Below the pieces are notes generated by a model. The model was not told the origin of the DNA and did not search any database. It was given only the letters and a program-made list of their open reading frames with translations. Of a stretch of DNA of 64,000 nucleotides, positions 8,246 through 50,208 are shown piece after piece. Made by a program: the position numbers and the translations under genes. Source of the stretch: Natronococcus sp. CG52 (GTDB taxonomy: Archaea; Halobacteriota; Halobacteria; Halobacteriales; Natrialbaceae); NCBI RefSeq assembly GCF_023913515.1, contig NZ_CP099391.1:2046001-2110000 (forward strand), read 5' to 3'. The number at the start of each line of letters is the position of its first letter. The first letter of the stretch is position 1.

Positions 8246-9283
8246 GTGGCGGCTGAACGGATACTCGTCCCGCTGTCGGAGACGGTGACCGTCCGGCAGA
8301 CAGTCGGCTACGCGGTCCGGTCCAGTCTCGAGCGCGCCGACTCGCTCGAGTGTCATCTGATCGTCGCGTTACCGAACGACAGGGAGATGCCGGAGGGACA
8401 GAGCGAGATCGACGAGGCCAGATCGCTGCTCTCGAAAGCGGAGAACTGGGTCGAGGAAGACGTCGGTACCTCGTCGGTAACGGTCGAAACGGCCGTTCTC
8501 GGGAGAGATGAGTACCTCTTCGGCCCGCGGGATTTCGCCGAGGTGTTCGCGGCGTACGCCGAGGAACACGACATCGACCGCGTCGTCCTCGATCCCGAGT
8601 ACGAACCCGGGGCGTCGGCCGGAATGCTCCACCCCCTGGAGCGCGAACTCGAGGCCGCCGGCCTGCCGTACGACGAGGCACCGGTCGAGCGGCCGGCGCG
8701 CCACGAGCGGCTGATCGGCGACGGAACCCAGCGGTTCGACCGGCTGTTCGCGATGTTCTGGATCTCGTACGGGTTCTACCTCGTGCTCGGCGACCCGACC
8801 TACTGGTTCGACCTGGTGACCGGTGCGGCAGTCGCGGGGATCGTCTCGGTCTCGCTCGCTCACATCACGTTCACGTTCCCGCTCGGTCGCGTCCAGTCGC
8901 CGCTCCGGACGCTCCGGTTCGCGATCTACGTCCCCTACCTGATCTGGGAGATCGTCAAAGCGAACCTCGCGATCTCGATCGTCATCCTGCGGCCGTCGAT
9001 GCCGATCGATCCGAAACTGACGCGGGTCAACGCGCGCGTCAGGAGCGGCCTGCCGCTGCTCGCCCTGGCCAACAGCATCACGCTCACGCCGGGAACGCTT
9101 ACCGTTCGGGCCGACGATCAGCGGCTGATCGTCCACACGCTGATTGAGAGCGCGCGTGAGGACCTCTTCGACGGCTCGCTCGAGCGGGCGGTCCGGTTCG
9201 TCTTCCACGGTCGCGAGTCGGCGGCGATCTCGTCGCCGAGCGAGCGCGGCGACGCGAAGATCGTCAGAGGTGACGACCCGTGA
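8246..9283 (+). CDS. mrpE: Mrp antiporter subunit E with N-terminal UspA-like domain
   Basis: A 345-residue fusion. Residues 1-150 form a universal-stress-like alpha/beta domain (AAERILVPLSETV start; FAAYAEEHDIDRVVLDPEY near residue 110). Residues 170-310 match MnhE/MrpE: two or three membrane helices, then the conserved cytoplasmic region (LPLLALANSITLTPGTLTV). Typical bacterial MrpE is about 160 residues and lacks the first domain. It opens a nine-gene overlapping operon for a Na+/H+ antiporter in the cell membrane. The Usp-like part could sense nucleotide or stress state, which is inference. Stop overlaps the next start. Confidence 0.92.
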   Translation: MAAERILVPLSETVTVRQTVGYAVRSSLERADSLECHLIVALPNDREMPEGQSEIDEARSLLSKAENWVEEDVGTSSVTVETAVLGRDEYLFGPRDFAEVFAAYAEEHDIDRVVLDPEYEPGASAGMLHPLERELEAAGLPYDEAPVERPARHERLIGDGTQRFDRLFAMFWISYGFYLVLGDPTYWFDLVTGAAVAGIVSVSLAHITFTFPLGRVQSPLRTLRFAIYVPYLIWEIVKANLAISIVILRPSMPIDPKLTRVNARVRSGLPLLALANSITLTPGTLTVRADDQRLIVHTLIESAREDLFDGSLERAVRFVFHGRESAAISSPSERGDAKIVRGDDP

Positions 9284-9567
9284 TTCCGAGCGGCGTCACG
9301 CTCGAGGAGGTGTTCCTCGCCGCAGCGGCGCTGTTCGTCGTCCTCGCGATCGTGATGTTCTACCGGGCCGTCGCCGGTCCGACCACTCAGGATCGGCTGC
9401 TCGCGGTGAACGTCCTCGGGACCAACACCGTCGTAATCCTCGCGCTGCTCGCTGCCGGACTCGACGAGCCGCGGTTCCTCGACGTCGCCCTGATCTACGC
9501 CCTGCTCAACTTCCTGATGGCGATCGCCATCTCGAAGTTCACTGTCGAGCGAGGTGGTGTGCTGTGA
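9280..9567 (+). CDS. mrpF: Mrp antiporter subunit F
   Basis: A 95-residue protein with three membrane helices. The block FYRAVAGPTTQDRLLAVNVLGTN is cut here to the diagnostic part AGPTTQDRLLAVN, a signature of MnhF/MrpF. It starts with GTG overlapping the mrpE stop codon by four bases, and its own stop overlaps mrpG, showing strict translational coupling. Role: small membrane subunit of the Mrp Na+/H+ antiporter. Confidence 0.93.
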   Translation: MIPSGVTLEEVFLAAAALFVVLAIVMFYRAVAGPTTQDRLLAVNVLGTNTVVILALLAAGLDEPRFLDVALIYALLNFLMAIAISKFTVERGGVL

Positions 9568-36497: not shown

Positions 36498-37178
36498 ATT
36501 AGAATGGTTGAAAGACGTGTGTAAGATAGTTTTCGACTTGTCGCTGCTCGAGTCAGCGGCGAAAACGCCCGCCGTCGGCGACGCTCCAGAAGAAACCGGT
36601 CGCAGAGATTCTCGCGCTGCTCGAACTTGTTCAGGTCAATAACCCATGTGACACATTCTCGTATACTTTTCCGGTTTCCGAATACCACCTCTGTATTAGT
36701 TTGGCATCACCTGCCGCGGCGGAGTCACCACCGTGAGCCGGTCCCGTCGCAGTTCAATTAGACCATGCTCTCCCGGAGAACTGTCCGGCAACCGGTCACG
36801 TCTATCTCGCTGTAACGGTATACGATGCAGAAGTCGAGTTCGACGCACCGACCGGGTTCGATTCGAACTAAAACGGCTGAATCAACCGTGCGACAAATGT
36901 ATTATTTGTTTACATTATTTCCACCAACTGCTGTAAATGATTCCAAAACCGTGCTGAATACAGGGTAGTATATCAGTTAGATTACCACATTCATCGAAAA
37001 TCACCGCACTAGCTGAGGGAAAGACACGGTCAACCCATTCGATAGTTCTATGAGGTTCGTTAGCGTGCATCATACCACGTTTCCTCAAGCGACCCATTTT
37101 CGCATGGGCGAATCACTGGGACAGGGGAGTGTACCGCGACTGGTGACCGAAGCCGCTCGTGAAGGAAGGTAAGAGAAC
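36498..37178. other. AT-richer spacer with array repeat A
   Basis: Contains repeat A (36602-36689) and otherwise no firm gene. A 60-residue minus-strand frame at 36915-37097 is open but matches nothing recognised. AT-rich stretches around 36890-36930 stand out from the chromosome average. Confidence 0.5.
36602..36689 (-). repeat. aroQ-tail array repeat A
   Basis: Core 36602-36634 reads, on the minus strand, CTGAACAAGTTCGAGCAGCG, that is LNKFEQREN without the stop. It is preceded on the minus strand by a conserved arm at 36635-36689. The arm matches that of copy B in about 42 of 55 bases by hand count, with no gaps. Oldest-lying (farthest from aroQ) member of the proposed attachment-site family. 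Confidence 0.8.
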
Positions 37179-37988
37179 ATGAGTGATACAGACTATGCTG
37201 GCATTACAAAAAGCCAGAAAGAGACGTGGGCAACGGGCGATTTCAACGAGATCGCCCGTCAGAACGTGGTCATGGGAGAGGCGCTCTGCGAAGCGGTTGA
37301 CCCGCATCCCGGGCAACGTGTGCTGGATGTAGCCTGTGGCAGCGGGACAGCAGCACTGGTTGCAGAGCGCCGGTACTGTGAGGTCACAGGCCTCGACTAC
37401 GTGCCCGAATTGATCGAACGTGCCAAAGCGCGGGCACAGGCCAACGGGCAAGCCGTTGATTTCCGCGTTGGCGATGCGCAGGACATGCCGTTTCCTGACG
37501 ACAGCTTCGATGTAGTGCTCTCGGTGTACGGAGTGCAATTTGCGCCTGATCAGGAGCAGGCAGCAAGCGAGTTGCTTCGGGTTTGCAGACCAGGAGGCAA
37601 AATCGGTCTGGCAGGCCCGATCCCCGAGGGATGGAGTGGCGATTGGTTCGCTGCCCACGCCCAGTACGTCCCTCCACCACCCGACGTACAGTCGCCCCTT
37701 CGGTGGGGCACAGACGAGGGACTTGACGAGCTACTCGGTGCTGGCACTCGTTCAATCGAGAGCGAGCGGCGGACAGCACTCCAATACTATCGGTCGGTCG
37801 ACCATGCAGTGGACGTGTTCAGCACTTACTTCGGCCCGACAATCCGTGCGTTTGAGAAGGTCGAGTCGGAAGCACACGATCGTCTTCGGAACGACCTCAG
37901 GGATGTATTCAGCCGCTACAACCGCGCAACAGACGATACTGCAATCGTTGAGAATCAGTATCTTCAAACCATTATAACCAGTGAATAA
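37179..37988 (+). CDS. SAM-dependent methyltransferase (class I, UbiE-like), cassette cargo
   Basis: A 269-residue class I methyltransferase. Motif I VLDVACGSGTAAL, motif II LDYVPELIERAKARA, DFRVGDAQDMPFPDDSFDVV (given in part) and the GGKIGLAGPIPEGWSGDWF post-motif are typical. It methylates a small molecule; substrate unknown. Codon use is less GC-rich and the protein less acidic than the neighbours, a sign of foreign origin. It is the only array cargo on the plus strand, between repeats A and B. Confidence 0.9.
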   Translation: MSDTDYAGITKSQKETWATGDFNEIARQNVVMGEALCEAVDPHPGQRVLDVACGSGTAALVAERRYCEVTGLDYVPELIERAKARAQANGQAVDFRVGDAQDMPFPDDSFDVVLSVYGVQFAPDQEQAASELLRVCRPGGKIGLAGPIPEGWSGDWFAAHAQYVPPPPDVQSPLRWGTDEGLDELLGAGTRSIESERRTALQYYRSVDHAVDVFSTYFGPTIRAFEKVESEAHDRLRNDLRDVFSRYNRATDDTAIVENQYLQTIITSE

Positions 37989-38188
37989 ATAGCTCGAAAT
38001 TAGTGGAGAGAGATGCACGGTATATCTACGGTCAATACTGGGGGTTTGATCGAGGCGATCTCTATCCAGTGCACCGTTTGTGACAAATCCTAAATAACCC
38101 CTTTATCGGCCTGTTACTGCCTTTGCCCGTATTGATCCAGTGGACTGTGATCGTCTCCAGCCATCCACCGTGATAATCGCACCCCGAG

Positions 38189-38271
38189 TTACCGCTTCCC
38201 ACGCTGATTTGTTCAGGTCAATAACTCACGTAACATAGTTCCGTGTACTTTACCGGTATCCGAATATTCCC
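38189..38271 (-). repeat. aroQ-tail array repeat B
   Basis: Core 38189-38216 is a five-base-deleted version of the aroQ tail (minus strand CTGAACAAATCAGCGTGGGA, then AGCGGTAA). Arm 38217-38271 is nearly as close to copy A as C is to D (GTCAATAAC, TACTTT, CCGGT, TCCGAATA shared with A). Confidence 0.78.
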
Positions 38272-38287
38272 TTTGTAGCAGTGTGTT

Positions 38288-38331
38288 CGGAATCGCCGCT
38301 CTGAAGGGGCCTGTAGGCAGGGGCGATTCCG
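38288..38331. repeat. Perfect 10-bp inverted repeat (hairpin)
   Basis: CGGAATCGCC at 38288-38297 pairs with GGCGATTCCG at 38322-38331 around a 24-base loop. It lies 17 bases past the arm of repeat B. Could be a terminator, a structural part of the attachment site or a small MITE end. Confidence 0.55.
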
Positions 38332-38489
38332 ACGCGTCTCTACGAATCGAGGGAGGGCAGTCGTACTAGCCGCCGACTGCTGATAGGTGCGTACGCGTAC
38401 TGTATCGTCTGGGCCCGCTAATTAGTGGCGGTGCCGATTCGGGTACTGGGGCACTGCAAACATCTGCTAGCGCAGTGGTCAGTGACGGT

Positions 38490-39314
38490 TCATTCGTCTT
38501 CAGCATAACCGACCTCTCGCAGTTGCTCGGCGTCAGTGAAGACGTACTTCCCGATAAGGAGGCTGCTCGTCATACTCGTCAAGCCCCCTGCACCGAAGAT
38601 CATCGCCATGATGACGAACTGGTACAGGGCGGCGTAGATCGGGTTCTCACCGGCGAGGATCATCCCCGACATGATACCCGGTATCCACACCCAGCCGAGA
38701 CTCTTCAACGAGTCGATGACCGGAATAAGTGAGGCCTGAACACCGGTTTCGACGTGACGGGAGATAACTGCGCTGGGCGGTGCACCGAGCGACAACCCAG
38801 CTTCGATCTCCGCGCGGTTCGATACAATTTCACTCTTGAACCGGTCGAGTGCGAGTGAGTTGATCTGCATCGCGTTTGCGATGATCATGCTTCCGACGGG
38901 TACCAGGTTGCGTACGTTCGCCTCGATGGCACCGGTTACCGTCATCGTGACGATCACCAGCCCAGATCCGAAGACGATTGCAACGAACGACACCCGGACG
39001 ACACCCGGCAATCCCTCACCGCGATTCTTCGAGATCCACGTCGCCCCACCCATCATACCCAGTAGGATGACACCGCTCCAGACCAGATCGACCGTGAGTA
39101 GAAGGCCGACGATCATCCCCATCGCAAGGATCTGGACAAATCCGCGCACGAGTGCGACACCGAGTTCGCGTTCGAGAGCCAATCCACGAAACCGTGAGAG
39201 GCCGACGACCATGGCCGCAAGTACCGACGCGGCGGTGACTTGCAGAAGTCCAGTCAACAGAACTGGGTCTCGGAGTTGTTCGAGTAAATCCGAAACCACG
39301 GCGATGTTGGTCAC
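38490..39314 (-). CDS. fetB: FetB-like ABC permease, cassette cargo
   Basis: A 274-residue permease of the UPF0014/FetB family with seven or so helices. Recognisable are RGFVQILAMGMIVGLLL, NLVPVGSMIIANAMQINSLALDRF, the EAGLSLGAPPSAVISRHV cytoplasmic loop and WVWIPGIMSGMILAGENPIYA. In E. coli FetAB exports iron and protects against peroxide; substrate here is inferred by family. It starts four bases inside the end of the ATPase gene (ATGA-type overlap), so the two are one unit. Confidence 0.92.
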   Translation of the reverse strand: MTNIAVVSDLLEQLRDPVLLTGLLQVTAASVLAAMVVGLSRFRGLALERELGVALVRGFVQILAMGMIVGLLLTVDLVWSGVILLGMMGGATWISKNRGEGLPGVVRVSFVAIVFGSGLVIVTMTVTGAIEANVRNLVPVGSMIIANAMQINSLALDRFKSEIVSNRAEIEAGLSLGAPPSAVISRHVETGVQASLIPVIDSLKSLGWVWIPGIMSGMILAGENPIYAALYQFVIMAMIFGAGGLTSMTSSLLIGKYVFTDAEQLREVGYAEDE

Positions 39315-39973
39315 GGCAGAACCTCTCCGACAGGCCCGATACGCACCATGCGACCATCACGTAGTTCCATGACACGGTCGCCAATTCGGCGAGCCTGCTC
39401 CTCGTCGTGGGTGACGAGAACAACGGTGACATCGAGACCTGAGAGTAGTTCTTCGACACGCGCTTCTGAGGCCGAGTCGAGGCTCGCAGTCGGTTCGTCG
39501 AGCAACAGCACCTCTGGGTCGTTCAGGAGGGTACGGGCGAAGGCGACGCGCTGTTTCTCGCCACCGGAGAGGTCTTCGACGTCACGGTCAGCGTATCCGT
39601 TGAGGCCGAGTTGAGCAAGCATTCGTTCGGTTCGGGTCTCGTCAACCGGCTCACCACGGAGCGACAGGCCGCGAGTCGCGTTTTCGAAAACCGTGCCTGG
39701 AACCAGTGCCGAATCCTGGGGAACGAGGCCCACGCAAACCCTGAGTTCACGAGGCGACAGTACCCGGTAATCCGTCCCATCGATGTACACTGTCCCGTCA
39801 GTCGGTTCATCGAGTCGATTGAGTAGACGAAGAAACGAGGATTTCCCAGCACCGGATGGCCCGACGATAACGAGTACCTCACCGGGTTCGATCGACACTG
39901 AAACGTCCTCGATGAGTGTCTCATCGTCCACGACCCGGGTGAGGTTTTTCGTCACGAGAGGTGGCGGCGTCAT
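39311..39973 (-). CDS. fetA: FetA-like ABC ATP-binding protein, cassette cargo
   Basis: A 220-residue ABC ATPase. Walker A GPSGAGKSS at about 37-45, Q-loop VGLVPQDSALVPG, signature LSGGEKQRVAFAR, Walker B VLLLDEPTASLD and H-loop VVLVTHDEEQ are all intact. Partner of the FetB-like permease. Encoded between repeats B and C of the array and in the same direction as aroQ. Confidence 0.93.
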   Translation of the reverse strand: MTPPPLVTKNLTRVVDDETLIEDVSVSIEPGEVLVIVGPSGAGKSSFLRLLNRLDEPTDGTVYIDGTDYRVLSPRELRVCVGLVPQDSALVPGTVFENATRGLSLRGEPVDETRTERMLAQLGLNGYADRDVEDLSGGEKQRVAFARTLLNDPEVLLLDEPTASLDSASEARVEELLSGLDVTVVLVTHDEEQARRIGDRVMELRDGRMVRIGPVGEVLP

Positions 39974-40357
39974 ACCCTATACTCTAGTGGTAGCACCGAA
40001 AACCTCGATGATTCGTGTACTGCTTGTTTAGTGGCTTCCCAGCATCTTTAATTCCTCTGTGAAGTCATCTCGCTTATTTCGATTCTGTTGAGCGAGAGAA
40101 ATTGTCGAACCAAACAGCCAATATTTACAACAACCAGATATTTTCCGCTCGCCAATCCGACGACGAATCCGCTGGACAGTAGCCGGGAGCTCCCTGTTTT
40201 CTAATCGAGGATAGAAGTTCTAAAAACCCTATTTTGACTACCGACTCTCCCGCTGCTCAATTGTTCAGGTCTCAAACTGACGTTACAGGTTTCGTCTACT
40301 TTTCCGCTTTCGGACTCTGTGACGAGAACTTTGATGGAAAGTCGGTGGATCAAGTGT
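39974..40357. other. Spacer with array repeat C
   Basis: No gene. AT-rich around 40080-40235. Holds repeat C at 40238-40323. Confidence 0.55.
40238..40323 (-). repeat. aroQ-tail array repeat C
   Basis: Core 40238-40268 (31 bases) equals the aroQ tail with a two-base deletion; restoring it gives LNKVEQRESR-stop, with the same TAG stop as aroQ. Arm 40269-40323 shares GTCTC, CTGA, GTTACAG and TCGTCTACTTT with copy D. Confidence 0.8.
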
Positions 40358-40780
40358 TTACTCTTCGATTTCGAACTGCGGGTTCCAAACAACTTCCCAT
40401 AGGTGGTCGTCCGGGTCTTGGAAGTGGCCCGAATATCCGCCCCATACACGGTCACGTGGCGGGTCGGTAACTTCTGCTCCTGCTTCTTCCGCCGTCTCCA
40501 TCACGTCATCGACTTCTTCTTTCGACGCGACGTTGTGGCCGATAGTGAATTCCGCAGGACTTGACGCAGTTTCGTCAACGTATGCATCTTCCGCGATTTG
40601 ATGTTTAGGGTAGAGTGCAAGCTGCAAACCGTCGTTCAGCGGGAAGAAGGCAACGGCTCCGCCTTCGAACTCTGTTCCGACGATACCCTCCGTTCGCCAA
40701 CCCAAGCCATCACGATAAAAGCCGAGTGATTCCTCCAAATCGTTGACTCCCAACGTGATGACTGTGATTTGTGGTTCCAT
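40358..40780 (-). CDS. VOC-family protein (glyoxalase/bleomycin-resistance fold), cassette cargo
   Basis: A 140-residue VOC-fold protein: MEPQITVITLGVNDLEESLG, GAVAFFPLNDGLQLALYPK, and the end FQDPDDHLWEVVWNPQFEIE containing the usual metal-site Glu. These proteins bind a metal and act on or sequester small reactive compounds. ATG 40780 is preferred to one five codons upstream because homology begins there. Single cargo gene between repeats C and D, same direction as aroQ. Confidence 0.9.
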   Translation of the reverse strand: MEPQITVITLGVNDLEESLGFYRDGLGWRTEGIVGTEFEGGAVAFFPLNDGLQLALYPKHQIAEDAYVDETASSPAEFTIGHNVASKEEVDDVMETAEEAGAEVTDPPRDRVWGGYSGHFQDPDDHLWEVVWNPQFEIEE

Positions 40781-40962
40781 GACATGAGCAGTCATTTGGG
40801 CTTGACACTTGCCCTGTGACCACCGTATAGAAAGGGCGGTGACGAGAAAGCCTCTCGTATAAAGAGGATTATAGTCCTTATCAACTGAACTTCTCTACCC
40901 GATAGGCACAATTTCCGTCTGTTCGCCGTTTTCCGGGGGACTAAACCGGGCAGTGATGTGCG

Positions 40963-41050
40963 TTACCGCTTATCACGTTGCTCAACTTTGTTCAGGTCTC
41001 GGACTGATGTTACAGATATCGTCTACTTTGGCGGTTTCCAGTACATCTAC
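40963..41050 (-). repeat. aroQ-tail array repeat D
   Basis: Best-preserved copy. Core 40963-40995 (33 bases) encodes LNKVEQRDKR and a TAA stop in phase; it differs from the live aroQ tail at about 5 of 33 bases, mostly at third codon positions. Arm 40996-41050 resembles that of C. Confidence 0.85.
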
Positions 41051-41335
41051 TCAGTCGTCATCAGCTGTATACGCGCCACCACGACGTTTAATTCGAGCAA
41101 CGACCATTCGGTGCTCGTCTTGGTGGAAGGTGACCGCAAGACGGAATTCACCGATACGCACCTTACGGCGTGAGCTATTCTGGAGCGGTTCGCCATAGTC
41201 TGGTGGATCGCGCCACGGAGAATCGACGATTTCGTCGAGTTTGTCGATGATGCGCTGCTGCTCGTTCGAATTGAGCGCATCGAGGTCGTCCTGCGCTTTC
41301 GATGCGAGTTCCCACGTCCACTCGTCGTCACTCAT
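41051..41335 (-). CDS. ParE/RelE-superfamily toxin, cassette cargo
   Basis: A 94-residue toxin-like protein: TWELASKAQDDLDALNSNEQ, then IIDKLDEIVDSPWRDPPDY, RRKVRIGEFRLAVTFHQDEH and VVARIKRRGGAY, the classic ParE/RelE helix-hairpin and beta-sheet order. Such toxins cut mRNA on the ribosome or poison gyrase; which is unclear. ATG 41335 overlaps the antitoxin stop by eight bases. Arm of repeat D lies immediately after its stop codon. Confidence 0.88.
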   Translation of the reverse strand: MSDDEWTWELASKAQDDLDALNSNEQQRIIDKLDEIVDSPWRDPPDYGEPLQNSSRRKVRIGEFRLAVTFHQDEHRMVVARIKRRGGAYTADDD

Positions 41336-41618
41336 TCGTCGCGTCAGTGCCGAATCGTTCGCGTGCTTCTTCGGCACTTATCGTCCGTTGTTTTTGGACA
41401 TCCTCTTCCGCTTGGAGGAGTGCAACGAGTTCGTCGCGGTCGAACGTGGGATGTTCGACGGCATCGCGTAAGGTATACCGAATAAATTCGCTACGGCTGT
41501 TGAATCCCCGTCCTTGCCACGTGTCTTCGATTTCGTCGAGAAACGACCGTGTGACTTTGAAGTTCACCGTGACGATCTCGTCGTCGCCATTGTTTGTGGC
41601 CGCTTCAGACATACGCAT
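41328..41618 (-). CDS. RHH-type antitoxin, cassette cargo
   Basis: A 96-residue ribbon-helix-helix protein: beta strand EIVTVNFKVTRSFLDEIEDT, then GFNSRSEFIRYTLRDAV (RHH helices), and an acidic C-terminal toxin-binding part. It should repress its own promoter and neutralise the ParE/RelE partner. The next in-frame ATG is at 41612. It is the cargo closest to aroQ, fitting the newest cassette. Confidence 0.9.
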   Translation of the reverse strand: MRMSEAATNNGDDEIVTVNFKVTRSFLDEIEDTWQGRGFNSRSEFIRYTLRDAVEHPTFDRDELVALLQAEEDVQKQRTISAEEARERFGTDATNE

Positions 41619-41715
41619 GTATTACCAGCGTGTTACCGTAGGTGTTTCGGCGTCCGAACGCTGAAGCTCTTGGCGAAAAGAAACAATAGTGAATTCGTGA
41701 AATCCGTGTCGTTTA

Positions 41716-41748
41716 CTACCGATTCTCACGCTGCTCTACTTTGTTCAG
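41716..41748 (-). other. aroQ 3' end, proposed attachment core (live copy)
   Basis: The last 11 codons of aroQ (LNKVEQRENR-stop), from which copies A-D differ by small changes. Here the core is continuous with the aroQ coding sequence on its left (minus-strand upstream) side, whereas the four copies carry the arm instead. In the integration model this is the gene-side junction that restores the aroQ tail after each insertion. Confidence 0.7.
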
Positions 41749-42042
41749 TTCGATCAACAGCCGAAAGATCGCTTTCACGAGATTCGCGTCGACGTCGAAC
41801 TGCTCCGCGTTTCGTCCCGCGCGCTCCATCACCTGTTCTTCCTGTTTCTCGTCGGTCGTCGGCAGCCCCTTCTCGTCTTTGACTGCCGCGATCGTATCCG
41901 CGACGTAGGTACGCTGGGCGATCAGTTCGACGATCTCGCGGTCGATCGTCTGGATTTCCTCGCGCAGTTCGTCGAGGTTCATCTCCTCCGGTGCTCGCTC
42001 TGCCGGCTCGTTTTCGTCGGTATCGATCTCGTCTGTGGTCAT
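41716..42042 (-). CDS. aroQ: Chorismate mutase (AroQ type)
   Basis: A 108-residue, all-helical AroQ-class chorismate mutase making prephenate for Phe/Tyr. The domain starts at MNLDELREEIQTIDREIVEL (with Arg, and the Glu/Asp helix 1 pattern), followed by IAQRTYVADTIAAVKDEKG and the C-terminal helix LVKAIFRLLIELNKVEQREN. The first 20 residues are an acidic extension. It overlaps the shikimate kinase stop by four bases (ATGA). Its 3' end is the proposed insertion site for the cassette array. Confidence 0.95.
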   Translation of the reverse strand: MTTDEIDTDENEPAERAPEEMNLDELREEIQTIDREIVELIAQRTYVADTIAAVKDEKGLPTTDEKQEEQVMERAGRNAEQFDVDANLVKAIFRLLIELNKVEQRENR

Positions 42043-47235: not shown

Positions 47236-47301
47236 ATCGGGTTCCACGCGGCCGAATCGTATTGTCGTTACGGTGAGGCCGGACGGATCAAAACGGGCGT
47301 C

Positions 47302-47383
47302 ATACGGACTGCTGTAAGTCATTTTCGGAGCGACCGCGACCCGTCCTGCGGTCGCTCCGGTAAATCGTTACAGCAGACCGTAT
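47302..47383. repeat. 82-base palindromic element at the helicase stop codon
   Basis: Inverted ends ATACGGACTGCTGTAA / TTACAGCAGACCGTAT and an inner perfect stem GGAGCGACCGC / GCGGTCGCTCC with a ten-base loop. Same length as the element at 27538, also fused to a TGA stop codon. Shared inner motifs are GTCATTT and AAATCGTT. Confidence 0.78.
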
Positions 47384-50208
47384 CAGTCCCAGAACGACTG
47401 GGTGCGGGCGTACTCGCGCTCCTTCGAGAGGATGTCCCGGTAGAAGTCCTCCTCGTTCTCCCGAAGCTTGCTGATGATTAGAGCTGCGTTGTGCGGGCCG
47501 ACGCCGCGGGCGGCCATCGCGACGACGGCCTGCTTGCCGTGGCTCTGGACGAGACTCGCGCTCTTGAAGGCGCGCTCGGTCATCTCCTCCTGTTCCTCGT
47601 CTTTCTCCTCGGCGCGGACCGCTTTGACGACCTCGTCGGCCCATGGGTTCAGCGAGGCGATCCGGGTCGAGCCGCACTCCGGACACTCGGGTTGGTCGGC
47701 GACGCGTCGTACCTTCGTTTTGACCTTCCACTCGTGACAGTGGGTACACAGTAGAATGACGCGGTCGTCTCGAATGCGTTCTTTGACCGTCTCGATGACG
47801 CTGGCGTCCGCGTTCTCGGGAGCCAGCAGCTCCTTGCCCGACGAACGGCCGCCCATCCCGACGGGGGTCCGGCCGCGGTGAGTAATCAGTTCGAGATCGC
47901 CCGACTGAATCCCTTCGAGGACGCGGCTCGCGCGTTCGACGTCCAGATCCTCGTGGAACACCTCGCGGATCGCCTCGTCGTACATCGGGGTCTCCTCGAG
48001 CGCCGAGAGCAGGCGCTCGTTCGACATCCGACCCGACCCCTGCCAGCGCTTGAGCGTGCCGAACTTCGCGGACACCTGTGCGAGCCGGAAGGCGAGCGCG
48101 TCCGATCCCTTGAGTCCGAGTTCGACGATGGTCTCGACGTGGTCCGGATCGGTCTCTTCGAGGATTCCCAGCACGTCGCTCGTCGCGATCGAGTTCGGCA
48201 CCTCGAGTTCGATCCGGTAGGGGTCCGTCTCGAGACCGACCGACGACCCGGCCTGCTGGCCGAGGAGTGCGGACAGGACCCGGCCGAGCGTCTCGTTCGT
48301 CTTGTGACCGAAGCAGGCGTTGAGGACGATCGATCGGCCCTGGCGCTCGAGGAGGAGCCGGTCGGCCGTCGGCATCGGCGCCTCGGCGTCGAGCTGGTCC
48401 TCGAGCTGCGAGCAGGCCTCGGTGAGGGTGTGCTCGTCCGCCGGATAGCGGCCCGCGACCTCGCGGCCGACCGCGGCGGCGTCGATTCCGGCCGACAGCT
48501 GCGGCTCCGCTACTCCCCGAATCTCGCCGACCTCGCCGGCGACCGCGGCGGGAACGGGGATCTCCTGGCCGATCCAGGACGGGACCTCGCCCGCTGGGTC
48601 CTCGATCGGGCTGACCTTCACCTTCCCCTCGTCGTCGTCGATCTCGGCGATGCGCCACATCTCGCCGCGCTGGATGAACACCTCGCCCGGCTGGGCGAAG
48701 TTGACGACGAACTGCTCGTCCAGGGTCCCGATTTGGGAGCCCGAGGCGATGTCGTGGACCTCGTAGGTCTCCTCGTCGGGGATCATCGAGAGGTTCGCGT
48801 AGACGTACTGCCAGGTTCCGCCCGTCGTTTCGACGCGGTCGTCGGCCTCGTCGGACCAGAGGATCCGGTTGCGGTGCAGTTCCCCGACTATCTCCCGAAT
48901 CGTCTCCGCGGTGACGTCTCTGAACGGGTACGCACGCGTGATCGTCTCGACGGCCTCGCGGACGGGGGTCGCGCCGCGGCTCTGGACGATCGCCGGGAGC
49001 TGATTCGCGACCACGTCGAGACTTCCCTCGTGGATCGTCGCGGGCTCGACCTCGCCGTCTCGAGCGCGGCGCGCGATCGCGAGCGCCTCGAACGTGTCGT
49101 CCGGGCGGGTCGTGACGATCGTGCCGCTCGAGACCTCGTCCTGACGGTGGCCAGCGCGTCCGATCCGCTGGAGAAGGCGGGCGACCTGCCGGGGACTCTG
49201 GTACTGGATCACGTGGTCGACGCGGCCGACGTCGATGCCCAGTTCCATCGAGGAGGTGCAGAGCAGCCCCTCGAGTTCGCCGGCCTTGAACCGGTCCTCG
49301 ACGTCGATCCGGGCCTCCTTCGAGAGCGAGCCGTGGTGGATTCCGATCGGCAGGTCGAGTTCGGTGAATCGCGAGCCGAGGGCCTCGGCGGTCTGTCGAG
49401 TGTTGACGAAGACGAGCGTCGACTCGTGGGCCGCGACGAGGTCGCGGATCAGCCGGACGTGACTCGCCGTCGAGGCGTCGGTGACGAGTTTGCCGGCGAG
49501 CTCCTCGTCCTCCTCGGTACTCTCCGGGCTGCGGACGGTGACGTCGACGTTGCTGCCGACGTCGATCTCGCGAATTTCGCAGGCGCGGCCGCCGGTGAGA
49601 AACTGACCGACGGCCTCGGGGTCGCCGACGGTCGCCGAGAGCCCGATGCGCTGCATCCCGCCGGCGAGGTCGTGGAGGCGCTCGAGTCCGACGGAGAGCT
49701 GTGCCCCCCGCTTCGAGGCCGCGAGTTCGTGGACCTCGTCGATCACGACGTGGGAGACGTCCTCGAGGCCCTCCCGAAGGCGTTCGCCGGTGAGCATCGC
49801 CTGCAGCGTCTCCGGCGTCGTCACGAGGACGTCCGGCGGATTCTCGGCCTGTTTTCCCCGCTGGTACTGGGTCGTATCGCCGTGGCGGACGGCGACCTCG
49901 AGGTCCAGGTACTCGCCCCACCACTCGAGGCGTTGGCGCATGTCGCGGTTGAGCGCCCGCAGCGGAGTGACGTAGAGCGCGCCGAAACCGTCCGGCTGCT
50001 CGTCCACCAGGTGGTCGAAGACGGGTAACATCGCCGTCTCGGTCTTGCCACTCCCGGTCGGCGCGATCACGAGCGTGTTCTCGCCGGCCGACAGCGGCGG
50101 AATCGCGAGTCTCTGCGGTGCCGTCGGCGTCGAGAAACCGCGTTCGGAAAGCGCCCCGCGAACCGTCGTACCGAGGTGTGTAAAGGCGGCGACGTCTCCC
50201 TCAGTCAT
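47383..50208 (-). CDS. lhr: Lhr-type superfamily 2 helicase
   Basis: A 941-residue DNA helicase. Motif I APTGSGKTETAML at about 52, motif II IDEVHEL (DEVH box, Lhr-type), motif III LSATVGD, motif VI QRIGRAGHRQDEV. After the RecA cores come the winged-helix and Lhr-core domains and a zinc-binding motif CTHCHEWK...CPECGSTR near residue 825. Lhr enzymes act in DNA repair or recombination. ATG 50208 begins the family N-terminus. A related PdeM-like phosphoesterase lies 5.7 kb downstream on the map. Confidence 0.93.
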   Translation of the reverse strand: MTEGDVAAFTHLGTTVRGALSERGFSTPTAPQRLAIPPLSAGENTLVIAPTGSGKTETAMLPVFDHLVDEQPDGFGALYVTPLRALNRDMRQRLEWWGEYLDLEVAVRHGDTTQYQRGKQAENPPDVLVTTPETLQAMLTGERLREGLEDVSHVVIDEVHELAASKRGAQLSVGLERLHDLAGGMQRIGLSATVGDPEAVGQFLTGGRACEIREIDVGSNVDVTVRSPESTEEDEELAGKLVTDASTASHVRLIRDLVAAHESTLVFVNTRQTAEALGSRFTELDLPIGIHHGSLSKEARIDVEDRFKAGELEGLLCTSSMELGIDVGRVDHVIQYQSPRQVARLLQRIGRAGHRQDEVSSGTIVTTRPDDTFEALAIARRARDGEVEPATIHEGSLDVVANQLPAIVQSRGATPVREAVETITRAYPFRDVTAETIREIVGELHRNRILWSDEADDRVETTGGTWQYVYANLSMIPDEETYEVHDIASGSQIGTLDEQFVVNFAQPGEVFIQRGEMWRIAEIDDDEGKVKVSPIEDPAGEVPSWIGQEIPVPAAVAGEVGEIRGVAEPQLSAGIDAAAVGREVAGRYPADEHTLTEACSQLEDQLDAEAPMPTADRLLLERQGRSIVLNACFGHKTNETLGRVLSALLGQQAGSSVGLETDPYRIELEVPNSIATSDVLGILEETDPDHVETIVELGLKGSDALAFRLAQVSAKFGTLKRWQGSGRMSNERLLSALEETPMYDEAIREVFHEDLDVERASRVLEGIQSGDLELITHRGRTPVGMGGRSSGKELLAPENADASVIETVKERIRDDRVILLCTHCHEWKVKTKVRRVADQPECPECGSTRIASLNPWADEVVKAVRAEEKDEEQEEMTERAFKSASLVQSHGKQAVVAMAARGVGPHNAALIISKLRENEEDFYRDILSKEREYARTQSFWD

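Follow-up and report, generated by a model that had tools for sequence, protein, structure and literature searches.

Integrons hold arrays of one- or two-gene cassettes that grow mostly at one end, in which toxin-antitoxin cassettes are frequent and the recombination site is borne by the cassette. The arrays beside aroQ in haloarchaea share all of these features, although their growth is seen by comparison only. By contrast, the aroQ arrays lack IntI, the integrase-like genes nearby being degenerate or apparently located at another insertion point; they target a protein gene at its 3' end, which is restored by the cassette, and their genes lie in both orientations. No attC-like fold was found in six cassette sites and the aroQ site (z-scores -0.48 to 0.74). 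A paper on archaeal integrons (PMC9668308) does not mention Halobacteria in its text.

The dif/pdif modules of Acinetobacter plasmids (XerC/XerD) are likewise small, shuffled and recombinase-less, depend on an enzyme in trans, as is inferred for the aroQ cassettes, and are often toxin-antitoxin pairs. They are characterized by alternating short sites on plasmids, whereas the aroQ sites are direct repeats that each bear a long arm on one side only and lie at one chromosomal gene. CIMEs and SCC at rlmH restore a gene 3' end upon insertion, accrete in tandem and have recombinase-less forms moved in trans, a combination also found in SGI1 at trmE (PMC8409611). The aroQ units meet the CIME criterion of being bounded by attL and attR without a recombinase of their own; compared to these elements, they are only ~1 kb, with one or two genes, and reside in haloarchaeal hosts. 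Neither the 10-17-kb flanks nor the plasmid and phage records nor the IMG/VR patterns yielded an autonomous parent element with the same sites. The criteria for insertion sequences are not met, as the window cassettes have no transposase domain and the tails are not duplications. Altogether, the haloarchaeal aroQ arrays look like an integron-like gene-collecting system. The literature that we searched, which is not the whole literature, contains no earlier description of it and no paper joining aroQ with haloarchaea.

Architecture of the array in Natronococcus

The window, i.e. the whole analysed stretch of 64,000 nucleotides, encodes aroQ (chorismate mutase; 41716..42042, minus strand), which was identified by translation; 59 of 61 relatives share it, and its 3' end is the proposed attB. 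The aroQ core, CTGAACAA in the aroQ sense (plus-strand 41741-41748), and the 3' tail with the stop codon span 41717..41748 on the minus strand; the tail is assigned to the RelBE cassette on the basis of its sequence, and because tails track the cassette family. Outward from aroQ lie the sites D, C, B and A. Each copy comprises, in the aroQ direction, an arm, then CTGAACAA, then an aroQ-like tail that resembles the final aroQ codons, often including the stop, and each marks a cassette junction.

All cassettes and sites are given on the minus strand. Cassette 1 (40996..41740; ~753 bp including the aroQ core) encodes a RelE/ParE-type toxin (41051-41332) and an antitoxin (41328-41606), and belongs to a family, F2, found in 17 studied loci. 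Site D (40988..41050) consists of a core at 40988-40995 and a class r arm at 40996-41050 that is conserved over ~50 nt. Cassette 2 (40269..40987) carries a glyoxalase-family gene (40358-40777) and the D-side tail (40964-40987), and is followed by site C (40261..40323; core 40261-40268, class r arm 40269-40323). Cassette 3 (38217..40260) possesses an ABC ATPase (39311-39973), a UPF0014 permease (38490-39314) and the C-side tail; site B comes next (38209..38271; core 38209-38216, class v arm 38217-38271). Cassette 4 (36635..38208) contains a methyltransferase gene on the plus strand (37179-37988) and the B-side tail. Site A (36627..36689; core 36627-36634, class v arm 36635-36689) forms the distal end of the array, and its aroQ-like tail (36603..36626, minus strand), the distal and oldest one, has lost the stop at the aroQ position. 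Beyond site A, the flank matches that past the last site of N. pandeyae, with 86% identity over 2.5 kb. The window array encodes no recombinase gene. Elsewhere in the window, a 43-nt inverted repeat (47295-47390; 77% complementary, 10-nt loop) appears unrelated to the array.

The cassette-borne arm

Read on the plus strand, each arm is the 55 nt that follow TTGTTCAG. Without gaps, A and B are identical at 42/55 positions and C and D at 38/55, values unmatched by any other 55-mer of the window (0/63143; null mean 13.3-13.6, sd 3.1-3.3), and the cross-pairs (A or B against C or D) reach 21-26/55 without gaps or 33-35/50 with a 1-nt gap. The motif TACTTT is found at offset 29 of the arm in A/B, but at 28 in C/D. 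No arm is present in aroQ, where the identity is merely 13-20/55. The first-pass annotation, made from sequence alone, had reported an A/B match of about 42/55 and the absence of the arm from aroQ, and had suggested two subfamilies, A/B and C/D. All of these held, the first exactly, and the subfamilies correspond to classes v and r, to which classes m and p are to be added. Its statement that all four arms align without gaps held only within the pairs, since the cross-pairs need a 1-nt gap, and the identical spacing it had claimed for TACTTT is off by one between the pairs.

Further comparison revealed four arm classes, r, v, m and p, in two dissimilar superfamilies, r/v and m/p. The claim of arm conservation in unrelated cassettes was also borne out: class r occurs in 12 distinct cassette families, v in 10, m in 14 and p in 3. 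Family F2 (RelBE) always has an r arm, F0 (MazEF) nearly always m, and F3 (VapBC) mostly v. The arm profile showed that conservation is in register with the core; the information content of r/v arms falls to zero at ~50 nt from the core, and m conservation is shorter. Several v arms have an internal dyad, e.g. TACACG-N4-CGTGTA, noticed by eye only. In the window the arms are intergenic, lying between array genes, and the relE stop codon (41051) directly adjoins the D arm end (41050). Across cassettes the arm lies at a constant end, whether the nearest gene stops there (RelBE) or begins there (VapBC). The first-pass annotation had held that its reading would be refuted by arms that belong to a coding gene or to the end of a known IS. 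As far as could be tested without an IS database, neither is the case, given the intergenic arms and the absence of a transposase from the window cassettes.

Sites across haloarchaeal aroQ loci

The locus set was drawn from the aroQ downstream regions of ~40 relatives, 6 plasmid records and 80 named haloarchaeal loci, which left 112 loci after redundancy removal. In total, 74 of the 112 have at least one distal site, giving 128 sites and 127 cassettes. As a site was detected by its core plus either arm or tail, some of the conservation in these parts follows from the detection pattern itself; neither the arm profile beyond ~27 nt nor the strand control depends on that pattern. The genomes share ancestry, and the counts are not independent events. 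In the strand control, 84 sites were found on the expected strand downstream of aroQ in 697 kb, 78 of them within 4 kb, compared to 4 on the opposite strand and 3 upstream of aroQ.

A genome search with core and arm combined had been suggested in the first-pass annotation. Applied to 24 whole genomes, it gave 26 matches, 25 of which are at aroQ, and the reversed pattern gave none; in the 4.7-Mb genome of the window itself, the only matches are sites A-D. The lone match away from aroQ has 3 mismatches and looks like chance. Three IMG/VR scans for arms or sites yielded no match. A core-plus-tail pattern, which aroQ itself can satisfy, matched in 155 of 292 genomes of the class; where a genome has two matches, these lie on the same contig and strand at 0.7-5.5 kb from each other, in several families. 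The site and its nearly exclusive place are shown by sequence comparison. No tRNA, considered as a possible target, was present in 12 loci.

Searches with the window RelBE cassette returned, on plasmids, only plasmid-borne aroQ loci or diverged toxin-antitoxin genes, and in phage records a sole CopG-like gene. Plasmids of 160-240 kb in Natronorubrum, Haloterrigena and Natrononativus (L077-L082) carry the aroQ-shikimate kinase locus together with an array. One locus (L070) has a second core ~70 bp from the aroQ core, at 0-40 past the aroQ end, which would be a minimal or collapsed geneless cassette.

Cassette families and their order

The 127 cassettes have a median length of 950 bp, with one or two genes each. 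Toxin-antitoxin cassettes predominate: the largest families are F0 MazEF (21), F1 AbrB-PIN (21), F2 RelBE (17) and F3 VapBC (12). These are followed by F4 (5) and F5 (3; NikR-like regulator plus nickel-type transporter), four families of two, and 40 singletons; some gene identities were assigned by eye. Comparison of the arrays shows a shuffled order, as in F0-F3-F1, F0-F1-F3, F3-F0-F1, F2-F4-F0, F17-F0-F1-F2 and F1-F22-F2-F0.

Precise insertion and exchange of the aroQ tail

Five pairs of relatives with an empty and a filled locus, where empty means that no cassette was detected, match in their flanks from the core outward, which shows precise insertion: Halosimplex aquaticum/salinum, Natrinema gari/pallidum, Halorientalis pallida/regularis, Haloarcula amylolytica/sebkhae and Natrinema thermotolerans/mahii. 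Natronorubrum bangense carries two cassettes more than N. sulfidifaciens, both at the aroQ end of the array. In Haloarcula, a carbonic anhydrase gene is the conserved neighbour, separated from aroQ by cassettes of varying size. A counter-case is provided by L084 and L087, where the cassette by which the two differ lies at the far end of the array instead of next to aroQ.

Tail exchange is likewise shown by comparison. The aroQ tail sequence tracks the adjacent cassette family (0/2000 permutations). The two tails of one locus are no more alike than expected, with a similarity of 0.692 versus 0.677 permuted (126/2000 permutations as high), and are identical in only 1/74. With increasing rank from aroQ, tail identity decreases through 9.0, 8.5, 8.0 and 7.0 of 10 residues, and the fraction of tails that keep the stop through 0.98, 0.89, 0.81 and 0.64. 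The tail travels with the cassette; therefore, target duplication is excluded, and conservative recombination of a circle fits. In one locus (L066), the AroQ C-terminus is altered and longer (KIEQNHH...), apparently replaced by an inserted cassette, as would be expected if cassettes supply the aroQ 3' end. Mobility itself is inferred from these comparisons without experiment, and present-day movement is not demonstrated.

The core site and a proposed mechanism

The heptamer TGAACAA is near-invariant across sites, partly owing to the search patterns, and a dyad centred on it ranks among the best-scoring centres in both aroQ and distal sites. The aroQ half-sites, GCTGATCGAAC and GGTCGAGCAGC, pair at 9/11 positions, compared to a weak match of ~5-6/11 between the left and right halves of the cassette site, both counted by hand. 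The short identical overlap between inverted half-sites that characterizes a tyrosine-recombinase attachment site is present, with weak half-sites on the cassette side. That aroQ and cassette sites share the dyad points, by inference, to a tyrosine recombinase acting in trans. That the tails are carried along and nothing is duplicated speaks for a conservative exchange in which circle and aroQ recombine within their common 7 bp. We consider it likely, with a probability of about 0.8, that, of the two halves of a site-specific attachment site, the arm is the one carried by the cassette, the circle, the enzyme class and the binding of the arm being inferred.

In the proposed mechanism, each unit would be a small, mobile cassette that encodes no recombinase. 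Its circular form would carry an attP composed of the arm, CTGAACAA and a replacement aroQ 3' tail, which a tyrosine-recombinase-like enzyme in trans would join to attB at the aroQ 3' end, with the crossover within the 7-bp TGAACAA. The product would read aroQ body, core, new tail, cassette genes, arm, core and old tail; AroQ would stay whole, and a further cassette would find the target restored. Successive insertions, mostly beside aroQ, would build up the array while the distal tails decay; the toxin-antitoxin cassettes are probably hard to lose and would keep the array stable. Either the recombinase or a helper may be bound by the arm. The first-pass annotation had proposed that a common recombinase or host factor binds the arm; a recombinase site is the best-supported reading, in the absence of binding data and with the protein unidentified. 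Plasmid records, phage records and IMG/VR revealed neither a free circle nor a donor element.

The dissimilarity of r/v and m/p arms might possibly reflect two enzymes. In a bolder reading, toward which we lean only slightly and as a whole, the arrays would constitute a separate gene-capture system of the haloarchaeal class, unrelated to integrons, with a recombinase in trans, one fixed gene end, two arm superfamilies that define compatible cassette types, and toxin-antitoxin stabilisers. Haloarchaea, known as gene exchangers, would thereby gain a concrete integron-like platform at a fixed address, aroQ. As a genome sequence suffices to recognise site, place and cassettes, gene flow would be trackable and the recombinase could be found by direct assays. 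Such a system would explain the pile-up of toxin-antitoxin genes beside aroQ and the variation of the AroQ C-terminus among relatives, and might provide a site-specific gene-insertion tool for haloarchaea.

Alternative explanations

No intact integrase is encoded inside any examined array, which leaves the source of the enzyme to two rivals. The first holds that the integrase comes from a plasmid, a virus or an integrative element and acts in trans on cassettes that are cis-mobilizable, recombinase-less derivatives of that element. In its favour, the arm-plus-core layout resembles a phage-type attP, tandem accretion of such elements is already known, haloarchaeal genomes have many integrases, and a review (PMC8371274) describes tandem integration and integrase loss in archaea. 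Against it, no element that pairs this site with an intact integrase lies within 10-17 kb of aroQ, the Haloarcula integrases near aroQ appear tied to another insertion point past carbonic anhydrase, and the site was not found in IMG/VR. On balance we doubt this explanation a little more than we credit it; as a source of the enzyme it is at least as likely as the one that follows.

The second, a possibility against which we lean, is that the chromosome's XerA-like housekeeping recombinase does the work, the cassettes being an archaeal counterpart of the Acinetobacter dif/pdif modules, which likewise carry toxin-antitoxin genes. Each of the 30 genomes searched (29 picked for their arrays plus the window's own) has a XerA-like gene, and in one array-bearing genome (G005) it is the sole canonical tyrosine recombinase among the PF00589 matches. 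However, the gene occurs in every one of these genomes, and its presence therefore does not discriminate; the G005 assembly is fragmented. Xer sites usually have an overlap of 6-8; the overlap inferred here is 7 bp, which we list against XerA.

It is very unlikely that the cassettes arrived by transposition or Cas1-like integration with duplication of the aroQ end at the target site: aroQ-like sequence does flank every cassette on both sides, but the tails of one locus show no excess similarity and match those of the same cassette family elsewhere, and the window cassettes lack a transposase domain. Also very unlikely is a regulatory role of the arms, as promoters, terminators or the like, in non-mobile arrays formed by ordinary homologous recombination, for although they lie between genes, they stand at a constant end whether the nearest gene stops or starts there, have almost no copies outside aroQ loci, are conserved in register with the core and accompany precise insertions.

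Integrase-like genes near aroQ

A recurrent integrase-like gene located 2-16 kb downstream of aroQ was considered as a candidate and rejected, as the three copies inspected seem to be without the usual HxxR motif and tyrosine region. It lies at 8352-9561 past the aroQ end in L041, 2133-3300 in L053 and 14353-15676 in L046, and might be a repurposed recombinase. Similar integrase-like genes are present in L038, L039, L052 and L070. In three further loci (L123, L149 and L073), members of one broad integrase family sit just past carbonic anhydrase, ~1 kb beyond the last aroQ site, and this spot in Haloarcula-type genomes is apparently a second insertion point.
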